Of a DNA stretch of 7,404 nucleotides, positions 1,012 through 5,755 are shown one piece after another. The stretch is from NCBI GenBank assembly GCA_003696125.1, contig RFHZ01000401.1, forward strand, positions 1 through 7,404, given 5' to 3'. This stretch comes from Nitrospinota bacterium. Its GTDB lineage: Bacteria; Tectomicrobia; Entotheonellia; J063. Position 1 is the first letter of the stretch, and the number at the start of each line of letters is the position of its first letter. The translations under genes and the position numbers were made by a program. The notes below the pieces were generated by a model. It was not told where the DNA came from. It worked only from the letters and a program-made list of their open reading frames with translations, and ran no database searches.

Positions 1012-2019
1012 TCAGGCGGTGCAGACAAAGTCAACGACTTCCCGAAAACCCATGTGAACCAGGCATTCCCGGATCTCACTACGCGCTTTCTCTCCTGCCA
1101 CCGCAACCACGATCGGATGGCGCGGCACATGGACGAGTTCTGCCGGCCAGATGACCGGGGCATCGTGGATCCGTTTTCCCACCCGGCCTGGATGGAGTTC
1201 CACAATATAGGAAGGGATTTTTCCATGGGACAGGAGGGCACGGCGTAGCGCTTTGCCGGTGGCCCCGTATCCCCAGAGGATGTACCTGTCGGTGGTGGCA
1301 AGAAAGGAGGAGGCGAGAAAAGCCGCTTTGCAGGCGGTAAACCGCTCCAGGGCATAGCTGGCCCCGGTGCGCGACAGCCTATGTGGATGATCGCGCCAGC
1401 TCAGCAGTCGATAAGGAACCACACCGATCTGGTAGCCGTGGATCAGGAGGCGCAACACCAGATCGTAGTCCTCTGGCCAGCCGCAATCCCGGTACCCCAT
1501 CTGGAGGAGTATGGGGCGGCGGATCATCAGGGTAGGATGGGCGATCGGGCACTCCACAAAGGCCTCGGCCCTGACCTGCCAGGAGGTGTGGATGCTGTTG
1601 AGCCAGCGTTCATACCGGCGTAATCCCTCCAGTAAACGATGGCGGGGAAAGAGGCGGACATGACATCCGGCCGCAGCCAGGGCCGGGTGAGACTCCAGGT
1701 AGCGGATCTGGAGTGCCAGTCGATGACGGTGCATCAGGTCATCGGCATCCATGCGGGCGATAAACGTGCCGCGACAGTGAGGGAGTCCCAACTGCAGGGC
1801 GGCAACCAGGCCTCGATGCGGCATGGAAAGCACCAGGAAGCGGGAGTCCTGTCCGGCAAAACGGCGGGCGCAGGCCAGCGATCCGTCTGAGGAACCGTCA
1901 TCCACGATGATACACTCCCAGCGAGACTCGCTTTGCCTCTGCACGCTTTGCAGGCAGGCAGAGAGTGTCTTTTCTGCATTGAAGACCGGCAGCAAGATCG
2001 AAACCAGAGGGAAAGTCAT
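1012..2019 (-). CDS. Family 2 glycosyltransferase with a C-terminal Rossmann-like domain
   Basis: A 335-aa protein, predicted cytosolic with no clear membrane segment. Residues ~4-230 form a GT-A fold of family GT2. It opens with VSILLPVFNAE, has the nucleotide-binding VDDGSSDGS at 39-47, the metal-binding DADD (DXD motif) at 91-94, and PEDYDLVLR at 182-190, which supplies the presumed catalytic acid/base. Such enzymes move a sugar from a nucleotide-sugar donor to a polysaccharide, lipid or protein acceptor. Donor and acceptor are unknown here. Residues ~245-335 are extra: YILWGYGATGKALRRALL followed by IVELHPGRVGKRI looks like a glycine-rich beta-alpha-beta nucleotide-binding unit. The start has only a weak Shine-Dalgarno (AGGGG, 12 bases upstream). 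The gene lies 83 bp downstream of the transposase gene and 36 bp upstream of the enolase-superfamily gene, same strand. Confidence 0.9.
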   Translation of the reverse strand: MTFPLVSILLPVFNAEKTLSACLQSVQRQSESRWECIIVDDGSSDGSLACARRFAGQDSRFLVLSMPHRGLVAALQLGLPHCRGTFIARMDADDLMHRHRLALQIRYLESHPALAAAGCHVRLFPRHRLLEGLRRYERWLNSIHTSWQVRAEAFVECPIAHPTLMIRRPILLQMGYRDCGWPEDYDLVLRLLIHGYQIGVVPYRLLSWRDHPHRLSRTGASYALERFTACKAAFLASSFLATTDRYILWGYGATGKALRRALLSHGKIPSYIVELHPGRVGKRIHDAPVIWPAELVHVPRHPIVVAVAGEKARSEIRECLVHMGFREVVDFVCTA

Positions 2020-2102
2020 ACGCTATCAGCACCCCTGTCTACCCGTTTTGGCGTCGTGGTGATGAAACCGGGTGCCGGGAGTAGAGGGGGAGTTTGCTTC
2101 CG
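2020..2102. other. Short spacer between transposase and glycosyltransferase genes, with an imperfect inverted repeat
   Basis: No gene fits here. ACCCGTTTT at 2041-2049 can pair with AAACCGGGT at 2065-2073, eight of nine positions, around a 15-base loop. No T-run follows on either strand, so it is a poor terminator candidate. It lies just beyond the 3' end of the transposase gene, where RAYT-type elements often leave palindromic DNA, but nothing in the sequence proves that origin. I see no convincing promoter for the glycosyltransferase gene. Confidence 0.3.
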
Positions 2103-2684
2103 TTATTCGCGGGTGCGTACCCGGTCGATTCCCTTTTCATGCGTTTCCCTGATCCGTTCCGGGTGATTCTCGTCCTCTTCCCAACGTGCGGGATTGCCGG
2201 CAATGTATTCACGGATTCGGTCCAGCCAGACCTCGTCCCGAATGACGTGTTCGTAGTAGTTCCGTTGCCAGACATGCGCACCAGGCGTGCCACGCGTTTC
2301 GTTGATCCGTTTGGTAACGGCGGATTTGAACGAACCAACAATCGCCCCGATTGAATGGGGTTTGGGACCACGGGGTTTACTGGGTAGGGGCGACGCATGC
2401 GTCGCCCCTACGTTGTCCACAATCACAATGATGCCATGTACATGGTTGGGCATAATGATGAATTCGTCCAATGTCGTACGTGGAAAATGGTCGGGAATGG
2501 CCAACCAACACGCCCGTACGATATCCCCGTATTCGTTCAACCGCATTCTCCCGTCCATAACCTGACCAAATAGACATACCCGATCCTGGGTACAGATGGT
2601 GACGAAATACGCCCCGGGCCGGGAATAGTCGTATTCTGGCAAACGAACCGAGCGTCGGTAAGGCTTTTCGGGGTTATAGGTCAC
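2103..2684 (-). CDS. REP-associated tyrosine transposase (RAYT, Y1/HUH superfamily, IS200-like)
   Basis: A 193-aa single-strand DNA transposase or endonuclease of the Y1_Tnp family. Hallmarks are YDYSRPGAYFVTICTQ near the N-terminus, the HUH metal site IIMPNHVHGI (His81, His83), GSFKSAVTKRIN at 117-128, and WQRNYYEHVIRDE, with the catalytic tyrosine Tyr143 or Tyr144. The family ending REYIAGNPARW is also present. RAYTs are usually single-copy domesticated transposases that act on dispersed palindromic REP sequences. I chose GTG at 2684 because GGAGG (2692-2696) lies seven bases upstream and family members typically begin MTYNPEK. An in-frame ATG at 2768 would add 28 unrelated residues and lacks a site of this quality. 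Residues 93-100 (GATHASPL) are encoded by a perfect DNA palindrome. The frame is intact with no sign of decay. No inverted terminal repeats are visible. Confidence 0.92.
   Translation of the reverse strand: MTYNPEKPYRRSVRLPEYDYSRPGAYFVTICTQDRVCLFGQVMDGRMRLNEYGDIVRACWLAIPDHFPRTTLDEFIIMPNHVHGIIVIVDNVGATHASPLPSKPRGPKPHSIGAIVGSFKSAVTKRINETRGTPGAHVWQRNYYEHVIRDEVWLDRIREYIAGNPARWEEDENHPERIRETHEKGIDRVRTRE
2384..2411. repeat. Perfect 28-bp palindrome inside the RAYT coding sequence (REP-like)
   Basis: The half-site GTAGGGGCGACGCA (2384-2397) is followed with no spacer by its exact reverse complement (2398-2411). The next pair outward, 2383/2412, does not match. On the minus strand it is read in frame as V-G-A-T-H-A-S-P-L between the HUH motif and the catalytic tyrosine. 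The pattern (GTAGGGGCG arms around a short core) resembles dispersed REP-type palindromes of many genomes. I saw no second copy in this window. Confidence 0.85.
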
Positions 2685-3011: not shown

Positions 3012-4469
3012 ATGCTCCACCCCTCTACTCCCGCAACATGGCTTAGAAGTGTCTTACGACCCCTGGCTACCCCGGCCAGGAGAGGACATCTTCTCCTCTG
3101 CCTCTGCACCGCGATCATCACCATCGCCCTCCTCTTCTCCTGGCAGGCAAGTCAGGCCCAGCGACCACAAGTCTTTCTCCTTTCCGTATCCGGAACGATC
3201 GATCTCGGCCTGGCCCCCTATACCAGCCGGGTACTCCACGAAGCAGAGCGCCAGGGTGCTGCTGCCGTGATCCTGCACATCAACACACCGGGAGGACGGG
3301 TCGATGCAGCCATCCAGATGCGGGATGCGCTCCTCGATGCCGGGGTAGAAACGATAGCCTTTATTGACAAAGAAGCCTATTCGGCCGGGGCACTCATCGC
3401 CCTGGCGGCCAAACAGATCTATATGACCGGTGGGGCGGTCATCGGGGCTGCCACCCCGGTAGACCAGAGCGGGCAAAAGGCAGGAGAGAAGTACGTATCG
3501 GCCATCCGCAAGCTCTTCCGGGCCACGGCGGAACGGAACGGGAGACCCCCAGAGGTGGCCGAGGCCATGGTTGATGAAGACGTGGCTATACCCGGGCTGG
3601 TAGAAAAGGGAAAACTCCTGACCCTGACCACACAGGAAGCGCTGAAGTGGAAGGTGGCAGACGGCCAGATCGACACGCTGGAGGCGTTGTTAGAGCACCT
3701 CAACCTCTCTTCCGCTGCCCTCATCCGCACCCAGCCCAACTGGGCAGAGTCGCTGGTACGGGCCCTGACCAACCCGCTGATCTCCTCCCTCCTCCTCTCC
3801 CTCGGCATGCTGGCCCTCCTGGCCGAGCTCCTCTCTCCCGGCTTTGGAGTAGCCGGGGGAATCGGGATCGCCAGCCTGGCCCTCTTCTTCGGCAGCCACT
3901 ACCTGGTGGGACTGGCCGGTTGGGAAGAGCTCCTCCTGATCGGGGCAGGACTGATCCTTTTATCCATAGAAATCCTGGTTATTCCCGGCTTTGGCGTGGC
4001 CGGAATCCTGGGGATTTTTGCCCTGGGGGCCGGGGCCTTCCTCAGCTTTCTCGGGAAGTACCCGGTGCCTGAAGACCTCTGGCAGGCGGGCCTGTCTCTC
4101 CTGACCTCTCTGATCCTGGTGGTGATCGGGGCCGTGGTCATGGTTTCCCTGCTCCCGGTCACCCCGATCTGGTCGCGACTGAGCCTGAGGGCCAGGCTGG
4201 AGAGCCGGCGACCACGAGAGAGGCTGGTAAAGGAAGAAGAGACCCTTCCCTCACCACACGAAGGGCAGAAACCTCCCCTGGACTCCTGGCTGGGGGCCAA
4301 AGGGATAACCACTACGCCGCTACGTCCTTCCGGTATCGGTCTCTTCCAGGAAGAACGTCTCGATATCATCTCAGAAGGAGAGTACATCCCGCCGCATACA
4401 CCGGTAACGGTGATCCGTGTAGAAGGGAACCGGCTGGTGGTGCGACCAGAGGAGCAGCAACCAACCTAG
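3012..4469 (+). CDS. nfeD: NfeD1b-type membrane-bound serine protease (ClpP class)
   Basis: A 485-aa protein, full length for long-form NfeD. The start is the ATG at 3012, with GGAGG eight bases upstream. In-frame TTG at 2943 and ATG at 2970 lack such a site. ARRGH followed by a hydrophobic run (~27-44) and SQA-Q make a signal sequence. Residues ~52-240 are a ClpP-like protease domain with HINTPGGRV, the nucleophile Ser124 in AYSAGALIAL, and Lys167 in AIRKLF as the likely partner. The 43-residue spacing is close to Ser97/Lys138 of archaeal PH1510. About five membrane segments follow (~254-381), and the C-terminal ~427-485 is the small beta-barrel (OB-fold) NfeD domain. Family members partner with SPFH proteins and cleave hydrophobic membrane-protein segments. 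floA starts 15 bp downstream, supporting one operon and a joint role in membrane protein quality control. The exact substrate is unknown. Confidence 0.95.
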   Translation: MLHPSTPATWLRSVLRPLATPARRGHLLLCLCTAIITIALLFSWQASQAQRPQVFLLSVSGTIDLGLAPYTSRVLHEAERQGAAAVILHINTPGGRVDAAIQMRDALLDAGVETIAFIDKEAYSAGALIALAAKQIYMTGGAVIGAATPVDQSGQKAGEKYVSAIRKLFRATAERNGRPPEVAEAMVDEDVAIPGLVEKGKLLTLTTQEALKWKVADGQIDTLEALLEHLNLSSAALIRTQPNWAESLVRALTNPLISSLLLSLGMLALLAELLSPGFGVAGGIGIASLALFFGSHYLVGLAGWEELLLIGAGLILLSIEILVIPGFGVAGILGIFALGAGAFLSFLGKYPVPEDLWQAGLSLLTSLILVVIGAVVMVSLLPVTPIWSRLSLRARLESRRPRERLVKEEETLPSPHEGQKPPLDSWLGAKGITTTPLRPSGIGLFQEERLDIISEGEYIPPHTPVTVIRVEGNRLVVRPEEQQPT

Positions 4470-4484: not shown

Positions 4485-5474
4485 ATGGAACTGACAGGGG
4501 CAATCATTATACTGATACTGATAGTTTTAGGCGTGGGCATATCCTTCTTCCTCTACTTCATCCCGATCGGCTTGTGGATCAGCGCCTTCTTTTCCGGGGT
4601 ATCGGTCAGCCTCTTCACCCTGATCGGGATGCGGCTGCGCAAGGTGAATCCCCATGCGGTGATTCGTCCTCTGATCAGCGCGACCAAGGCCGGACTCGAT
4701 CTGGAGGTCGACAAGCTGGAGGCGCATTACCTGGCCGGTGGGAATGTCCAGCAGGTGGTCAATGCCCTGATCTCTGCGGATAAGGCGGATATCGATCTCT
4801 CCTTCCAGCGCGCGACGGCCATCGACCTGGCCGGCCGGGACGTGCTGGAGGCGGTCAAGGTGAGTGTCAACCCCAAGGTGATCGAGACCCCCAAGGTGGC
4901 TGCTGTGGCCAAGGACGGGATCCAGATCATTGCCCAGGCCCGGGTAACCGTGCGGGCCAACATCGAACGACTGGTAGGAGGCGCCGGGGAGGAGACGATT
5001 TTGGCCCGGGTCGGGGAAGGGATCGTCTCTACCATCGGCTCGTCCCAAACCCATACCATGGTCCTGGAAAATCCGGATAATATCTCCAAGACCGTTCTCT
5101 CCAAAGGTCTGGATTCTGGTACCGCCTTTGAGATCCTCTCCATCGATATCGCCGATGTCGATGTGGGAAAGAATATCGGGGCGCAACTGCAGATCGACCA
5201 AGCAGAGGCGGATAAGCAGATCGCCCAGGCCAAAGCGGAGGAACGTCGAGCCATGGCGGTGGCCTTAGAGCAAGAGATGAGGGCGCGTGTGCAGGAGATG
5301 CGGGCCAAACTGGTCGAGGCCGAAGCGCAGATCCCTCAGGCCATTGCTGAAGCGTTTCGCCAGGGGAATATCGGGGTGCGAGACTACTATGACCTCCGCA
5401 ACGTGCAGGCCGATACCCGGATGCGGGAATCGCTGGCTCGCGGAGGTGAAGAGAGCGGAGAGGAGGAAACCTAA
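4485..5474 (+). CDS. floA: Flotillin-like protein FloA (SPFH family)
   Basis: A 329-aa protein, the usual FloA size. The N-terminal hydrophobic stretches ~5-26 and ~28-49 form the membrane anchor, probably a re-entrant hairpin. The SPFH-like region (~50-230) includes [19 protein letters not shown]. An alanine/glutamate-rich coiled coil (~238-285) precedes the family-typical tail [15 protein letters not shown] with DYYDL and ADT near 300-311. FloA oligomerises and scaffolds functional membrane microdomains that affect membrane fluidity and the assembly of membrane complexes. GGAGG lies five bases upstream of the ATG. Fifteen bp separate it from nfeD, and its stop codon abuts the next gene's start, so the three are almost certainly co-transcribed. 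The acidic tail (GEESGEEET) encodes the purine-rich stretch that doubles as the next gene's Shine-Dalgarno. Confidence 0.97.
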
Positions 5475-5633
5475 ATGATGGATCCTTTTGAAAGGCGGAG
5501 ACGCGTCGAAAAGAGAGGAAAACGTTCCCATCTACGCAGGTTTTTGCGGTCTCGCGCCATCCTGCGACAGGGGATCCTGCTGGCAGAAGTGCTGGCGCCA
5601 CCGGTAGCGAAACGGCGTCGCTCACCCAGGTGA
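5475..5633 (+). CDS. Small basic protein of the nfeD-floA operon (52 aa, unknown function)
   Basis: A 52-aa reading frame starting on the base after the floA stop. GGAGG (5462-5466, inside floA) lies eight bases upstream of the ATG at 5475, an ideal arrangement implying translational coupling. A second ATG follows directly at 5478. The protein has 18 Arg/Lys and only 4 acidic residues. Residues 7-31 are an arginine-rich, probably helical stretch. ILRQGILLAEVLAPPVA (29-45) is moderately hydrophobic, followed by the basic tail KRRRSPR. It has no signal peptide and no full membrane span. I do not recognise a family. Its place matches yqfB in the B. subtilis yqeZ-yqfA-yqfB operon, though YqfB is longer and I claim no homology. 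It could bind the membrane face, FloA's acidic tail, or nucleic acid. The spacing and composition make chance unlikely, but conservation is untested. Confidence 0.7.
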   Translation: MMDPFERRRRVEKRGKRSHLRRFLRSRAILRQGILLAEVLAPPVAKRRRSPR

Positions 5634-5755
5634 CTTTTCGTCCACGTCATGGCGATTCCGTATCACCCAGGAGTCTTTGTTGGCGTGGAAGAGTTTGTGG
5701 ATGCAGAGAAGATGTGTTGAGCAGAAAGATATGCTGCGCAGAAGGAGGAACATGC
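5634..5755 (+). other. Spacer between the small gene and the ABC exporter gene
   Basis: 122 bp without a supported gene. A 23-codon frame at 5649-5720 has no Shine-Dalgarno. I see no strong terminator hairpin and no clear promoter. Read-through from the nfeD-floA operon into the exporter gene is therefore possible but unproven. The exporter's GGAGG lies at 5744-5748. Confidence 0.4.

Follow-up and report, generated by a model that had tools for sequence, protein, structure and literature searches.

Gene content of the nfeD-floA locus

The window, as we call the whole 7,404-nucleotide stretch of DNA analyzed here, carries an NfeD1b-type nfeD gene and a flotillin-like floA gene, followed directly on the same strand by a third, short open reading frame (ORF) (Table 1). 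The predicted NfeD protein comprised a ClpP-like N-terminal domain, a membrane domain, and an OB-fold partner-binding domain, all three over the Pfam cutoffs, while FloA matched PF12127 with 547 bits (cutoff, 34) and kept its C-terminal tail. All three ORFs lie in one reading frame, to which we attach no meaning. As stated in the first-pass annotation, which was made from the sequence alone, the start of the third ORF abuts the floA stop (TAA at 5472 to 5474, ATG at 5475; a second ATG follows at 5478), and a GGAGG, here part of AGGAGG, lies inside floA eight nucleotides ahead of the start codon. A terminator-like stem-loop overlaps the end of the third gene and would be a candidate for the close of the transcription unit.

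Table 1. Features of the nfeD-floA operon in the window, and motif genes found away from floA in other genomes
Feature	Position	Strand	Basis
nfeD, NfeD1b type, first gene of operon	3012..4469	+	PF25145 E 4.4e-55, PF24961 E 1.6e-24, PF01957 E 2.1e-12
floA, flotillin-like SPFH protein, second gene	4485..5474	+	PF12127 E 1.5e-164; NF010186 E 2.3e-167
AGGAGG ribosome-binding site	5461..5466	+	sequence
Third gene, 52-aa minimal member of FloA-linked C-terminal-motif family	5475..5633	+	conservation, motif profile
C-terminal motif LRQGILLAEVLAPPVAKR of the third gene (residues 30-47, with Glu at residue 38 conserved)	5562..5615	+	motif profile, leave-one-out test; motif dN/dS in relatives
Terminator-like stem-loop, then TTTT	5617..5634	+	consensus match only; count within shuffle expectation
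Motif gene away from floA, G147:C76 (L164)	1798-2520	+	motif match
Motif gene away from floA, G284:C59 (L166)	1856-2620	-	motif match
Motif gene away from floA, G465:C49 (L221)			motif match

The product of the third ORF is a peptide of 52 amino acids, MMDPFERRRRVEKRGKRSHLRRFLRSRAILRQGILLAEVLAPPVAKRRRSPR, with a calculated pI of about 12. It contains the 18 Arg and Lys residues counted previously (15 Arg and 3 Lys) and the hydrophobic patch ILLAEVLAPPVA. Among random sequences matched in base composition, about 9% contained an open frame this long. ORF length alone is weak evidence for a gene, and it is conservation that provides the evidence.

Elsewhere in the window, an ORF on the reverse strand (2103 to 2768) resembles what we take to be a REP-associated tyrosine transposase; a GC-rich palindrome of the gtaggggcgacgcatgcgtcgcccctac type (approximately 2380 to 2412) lies inside its coding sequence and is read as VGATHASPLPS. 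Another contig of the same genome (G000:C935, the L002 end) overlaps the end of the window (7404) and continues an ABC transporter gene, which is followed by an MBL-fold/rhodanese gene. In related loci, the gene after the third gene was often one for a PhoH-like ATPase, followed by one for a YbeY-like protein (L219, L220, L222 to L224, and L004), which places floA in a larger recurrent neighborhood.

A conserved C-terminal motif encoded behind floA

FloA homologues were gathered from 60 genomes and from 80 loci of named genomes belonging to the Chloroflexota, Gemmatimonadota, Acidobacteriota (Thermoanaerobaculia), Deinococcota, Bacillota, Ignavibacteriae, Actinomycetota, Acetothermia, and Bacteroidota. 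At floA loci outside the Bacteroidota, the next gene usually encoded an unannotatable protein of about 150 amino acids whose end resembled the hydrophobic patch of the window peptide. The conserved stretch, as opposed to the basic N terminus, comprises 18 residues at the C-terminal end with the family consensus L-x-x-[AG]-I-[IV]-x-x-E-[IV]-L-x-[PK]-P-x-[AS]-x-R. By the definition used here, it lies within about 3 to 14 residues of the stop codon, and in the window protein it ends 5 residues before it.

A motif profile of 24 positions was run over 17,229 six-frame segments from 84 floA loci. The best 52 matches were all located on the floA strand, 90 to 830 nucleotides downstream of floA, each in a different locus; none lay elsewhere, and only noise was found below them. 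Of these 52 matches, 34 were seeds of the profile, and the nonseeds included L007, L008, L030, L042, L044, L062, L065, L070, and L074. When its own row was left out of the profile, the window ORF still scored 25.5 bits (E 5.3e-6) and ranked 37th among all matches. The profile scan recovered the motif downstream of floA in 52 of 84 loci, and the earlier suggestion of an overlooked coding gene, third in the nfeD-floA operon, held up. Judged by its conservation, the third ORF is almost certainly a real gene and part of a real family.

The motif was predicted by AlphaFold2 as a confident helix, both in a fusion with FloA and in the third protein alone. The best explanation is that a C-terminal amphipathic helix with a Pro-containing turn forms the working part of the third protein.

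Relatives were mostly about 150 amino acids long (median, 151) and consisted of an N-terminal membrane helix, a variable low-complexity linker, and then the motif, with a membrane helix-like N terminus in 77 of 104 distinct members. The mean net charge of the 15 residues after the membrane helix was +3.5, versus −0.6 before it, which suggests that linker and motif should be cytoplasmic, on the side of the FloA main body. In two loci (L115 in G287 and L117 in G150), the motif is followed by a second membrane helix and SMP-30/NHL-like propeller repeats, an architecture that could possibly link FloA inside the cell to a domain outside the membrane. The earlier suggestion of a recurrent but diverse FloA-associated protein stands as to recurrence; the protein is not merely diverse, as one C-terminal motif is common to its members.

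Co-occurrence of the motif with FloA

A set of 290 bacterial genomes, most of which are unrelated to the window, contained 53 with FloA (PF12127) and 33 with a strong motif match (E ≤ 9e-4). All 33 motif genomes also encoded FloA (Fisher's exact test, p 6.4e-30, or 1.3e-24 after removal of seven genomes that had supplied profile rows), and no strong match (E ≤ 9e-4) was found in any of the 237 FloA-less genomes. Eleven FloA genomes gave no match at E ≤ 0.05. By eye, nine of these carried a weaker or, in G003, frameshifted version in the next gene (L012, L154, L155, L156, L158, and L160 to L163), while in G066 and G177 no motif was recognizable in the gene next to floA. Of the 96 motif genomes in a second sample, centered on another clade, 93 also had FloA. 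In two of the remaining three, the contig ended immediately upstream of the motif gene; the other was a 62% complete assembly in which the motif gene was not beside floA. Within one class of Bacilli, the motif, strong or degenerate, was located behind floA in 29/29 sampled loci, with the Glu missing in a few. Bacteroidota-type genomes encoded a FloA with a tail but no motif gene.

Several weaker matches were rejected. Those in the FloA-less class-mates G001, G002, and G004 (E of about 1e-3) were taken as chance; the match in G001 lay inside a secretion-ATPase-like protein (VLHEVLSPPKALQ), and those in G002 and G004 had the same score and open-frame size. Other matches in FloA-less genomes at E ≤ 0.05 (nine in all, with about twelve expected from 237 genomes) were regarded as noise, and an apparent second copy in the window's own genome (L002; E 0.04) was antisense to an MBL-fold/rhodanese gene and was likewise attributed to chance.

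In family f256 of the second sample (G457, G463, and G452; L222 to L224), FloA was present and the third gene kept its membrane helix and linker, while the motif ending was clearly decayed (SAVIGPCAA or AAIIGPCAA, with no Glu).

In two genomes (G147 and G284), nfeD, floA, and the motif gene were all kept on three separate contigs. Their motif genes precede an rdgB/HAM1-like gene and encode an intact membrane helix, linker, and motif. Retention of the motif gene after break-up of the operon argues for function rather than hitchhiking.

Putative binding partner of the motif

Our preferred reading, to which we give a probability of roughly 0.55, is that the third protein is the third component of the NfeD-FloA operon, a dedicated partner of FloA whose C-terminal motif would dock on the FloA oligomer. 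The docking site would most likely lie at or near the conserved C-terminal tail of FloA. In favor of this reading are the position of the motif gene behind floA, its co-occurrence with FloA, its retention after separation from floA, purifying selection on the motif, and the predicted cytoplasmic location of the motif. In the typical architecture, one membrane helix and a flexible linker would serve as a tether that connects FloA, by way of the cytoplasmic motif, with the membrane or with a domain on its far side. The window protein, having lost helix and linker, may act on FloA as a bare docking peptide, by capping, assembling, or regulating it, and its Arg-rich N terminus might, speculatively, bind the acidic membrane surface.

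Support for the FloA tail as a candidate docking site came from three genomes (G276, G139, and G122), in which the motif gene accompanied the tail-bearing FloA paralogue, ending in ...DYYELKNIQADTKMRDSI, but not the tail-less one; Bacteroidota FloA, however, has the tail without the gene. Second FloA paralogues lacking the C-terminal tail were observed in G043:C57, G188:C14, G276, G139, G122, G478, and G487, either in tandem with a full-length FloA or alone elsewhere. Comparison of FloA in the two groups of lineages without a motif gene yielded only one conservative column differing in both and was uninformative. For AlphaFold2, FloA was fused to the third protein by reading through the TAA, using an alignment with 12 paired rows. 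This fusion with a FloA monomer gave no sign of docking: the motif pLDDT (blocks of ten) was 83 and 77, versus 89 and 68 for the third protein alone, with no gain over the latter. With FloA as a monomer, this outcome weighs neither for nor against docking.

The motif might instead dock on NfeD, at its cytosolic OB-fold, a partner-binding domain, with the linkage to FloA reflecting the shared operon. NfeD indeed precedes floA in most loci where the upstream sequence is long enough to tell and was found somewhere in 10/10 FloA genomes checked; in several Bacteroidota-type loci, the motif gene and an immediately upstream NfeD1b-type gene are both missing. However, the motif gene persists behind floA where the adjoining NfeD is a short form without the protease domain (L021 and L034) and in a locus with no NfeD found upstream (L071), which favors FloA over NfeD. 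Moreover, the NfeD domain PF01957 was present in 12/14 control genomes, most of which lacked FloA. We consider docking on NfeD unlikely.

It is also rather improbable that the motif binds another widely conserved protein, e.g., a protease or a division or envelope factor, and brings it to FloA microdomains. The tether-like anatomy (membrane helix, linker, and C-terminal motif) would suit such a role, as would the extra membrane helix and beta-propeller-like domain of L115 and L117, but a general partner would predict the motif in FloA-less genomes as well, where it was absent at E ≤ 9e-4.

A fuller version of docking on FloA is more tentative, at slightly less than even odds. The FloA-NfeD machine would have a third subunit, nearly universal outside Bacteroidota-type genomes and recognized by a C-terminal helix motif that docks on the FloA tail, and the window would encode a 52-residue free docking peptide that alone modulates FloA assembly.

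Minimal forms and purifying selection

The window protein has no membrane helix-like segment at its N terminus. As helix and linker are typical but not universal in the family and the window encodes a minimal form, we did not treat this feature as defining. Other minimal forms without a helix had 41 and 44 (L142 and L144), 57 (L132 and L135), 60 (L198), 65 (L005), about 73 (L179), and 88 (L061) amino acids. They recur in several separate lineages and differ in charge, being acidic in some cases and basic in others; the Arg-rich N terminus of the window protein is therefore a local feature. The idea that basic composition is a conserved property failed, with acidic minimal forms encoded at L005, L142, and L144.

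Such a short protein could be a decayed remnant, in the process of disappearing from the window lineage after loss of its helix and linker, as most relatives are longer and have the helix. This is very unlikely given that minimal forms of 41 to about 73 amino acids are recurrent in separate lineages, that the motif is constrained in the minimal pair L142/L144 (pN 0.06; pS 0.37), that the window motif is intact, and that the class-mate G003 encodes a short form too.

Purifying selection between relatives, another check proposed earlier, was assessed by dN/dS from pooled pairs within the family; the window's only same-class partner, G003, was frameshifted and gave no blastn alignment past floA. 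Across 17 family pairs, dN/dS was about 0.10 in the motif versus about 0.30 in the rest, and the motif is thus under strong purifying selection.

G003, the sole same-class relative with floA, encodes ...LRSRAALRQG / LLAEIILAPPRAMRP at the same place, with single-base indels. Its floA is also broken by indels, and floA mismatches to the window numbered 21, 14, and 153 on codon positions 1, 2, and 3, so the contig is probably error-rich. The first-pass annotation had named frameshifts, stops, a missing peptide, and a lack of codon-position bias as outcomes that would speak against the gene; none was seen, the indels of G003 occurring in a contig with an equally broken floA. That the third ORF is an untranslated chance frame behind floA, short as it is and not rare at this base composition, is scarcely credible and, within the limits of sequence evidence, is already refuted by the conservation of the motif, its position, its leave-one-out score, and the same peptide in G003.

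Comparison with known systems

Neither Pfam-A nor NCBIfam contained a family matching the window protein above the curated cutoff, and scanned relatives gave no full-length or motif match to either, with only the propeller domain of L117 being matched. With a conserved part of about 18 residues and the rest of low complexity or missing, there is no model in family libraries, and the gene stays hidden. A PDB search with the motif returned only Hook3 (E 0.5), which was dismissed as chance, and a PDB search found no solved relative of FloA. No description of the motif string or of the third gene was found in the openly licensed literature, and an earlier description elsewhere is possible. The FloA-linked C-terminal-motif family has apparently not been described before, and with the third gene a known system gains a new component.

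Bacterial flotillins have been studied as a two-gene system (FloA and NfeD) whose function is disputed, and a third protein points to a missing component. This protein occurs in many phyla, combines a single short conserved motif with an anchor that varies, and offers a concrete handle (the Glu and the Pro pair) on FloA function.

In design, the third protein resembles SSB or ZipA-type tethers, in which an anchor or other N-terminal part is joined by a variable linker to a short conserved C-terminal peptide. This is an analogy without sequence relation, and the partner of the third protein is inferred.

The yuaF-yuaG(floT)-yuaI operon of Bacillus subtilis likewise consists of an NfeD-type gene, a flotillin gene, and a small third gene. 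However, its SPFH subfamily differs from that of FloA, and yuaI is reported to belong to the operon in B. subtilis alone (PMC2636767).

The host system itself is the SPFH5 or FloA-NfeD1b pair, of which the FloA and NfeD of the window are ordinary members. The FloA group (SPFH5) owes its definition to the operon it forms with YqeZ (Hinderhofer et al. 2009, PMC2636767), and FloA-NfeD is treated as two genes (Nat Commun 2024, PMC11222466); both papers describe a two-gene system, and the searched passages revealed no third conserved gene.

The closest parallel in gene order is the B. subtilis yqeZ-floA(yqfA)-yqfB operon of the sigmaW regulon (PMC3498285, PMC8144471), which, like the window, has NfeD1b, FloA, and a third gene in that order. 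In these two papers, yqfB is named only as a sigmaW operon member tied to sublancin resistance, with no motif or mechanism. The sampled Bacilli loci carry the motif behind floA as the window does, including a 73-aa form without a membrane helix (L179), and from its occurrence in 29/29 sampled loci of one class, YqfB of B. subtilis is predicted to be a member of the family.
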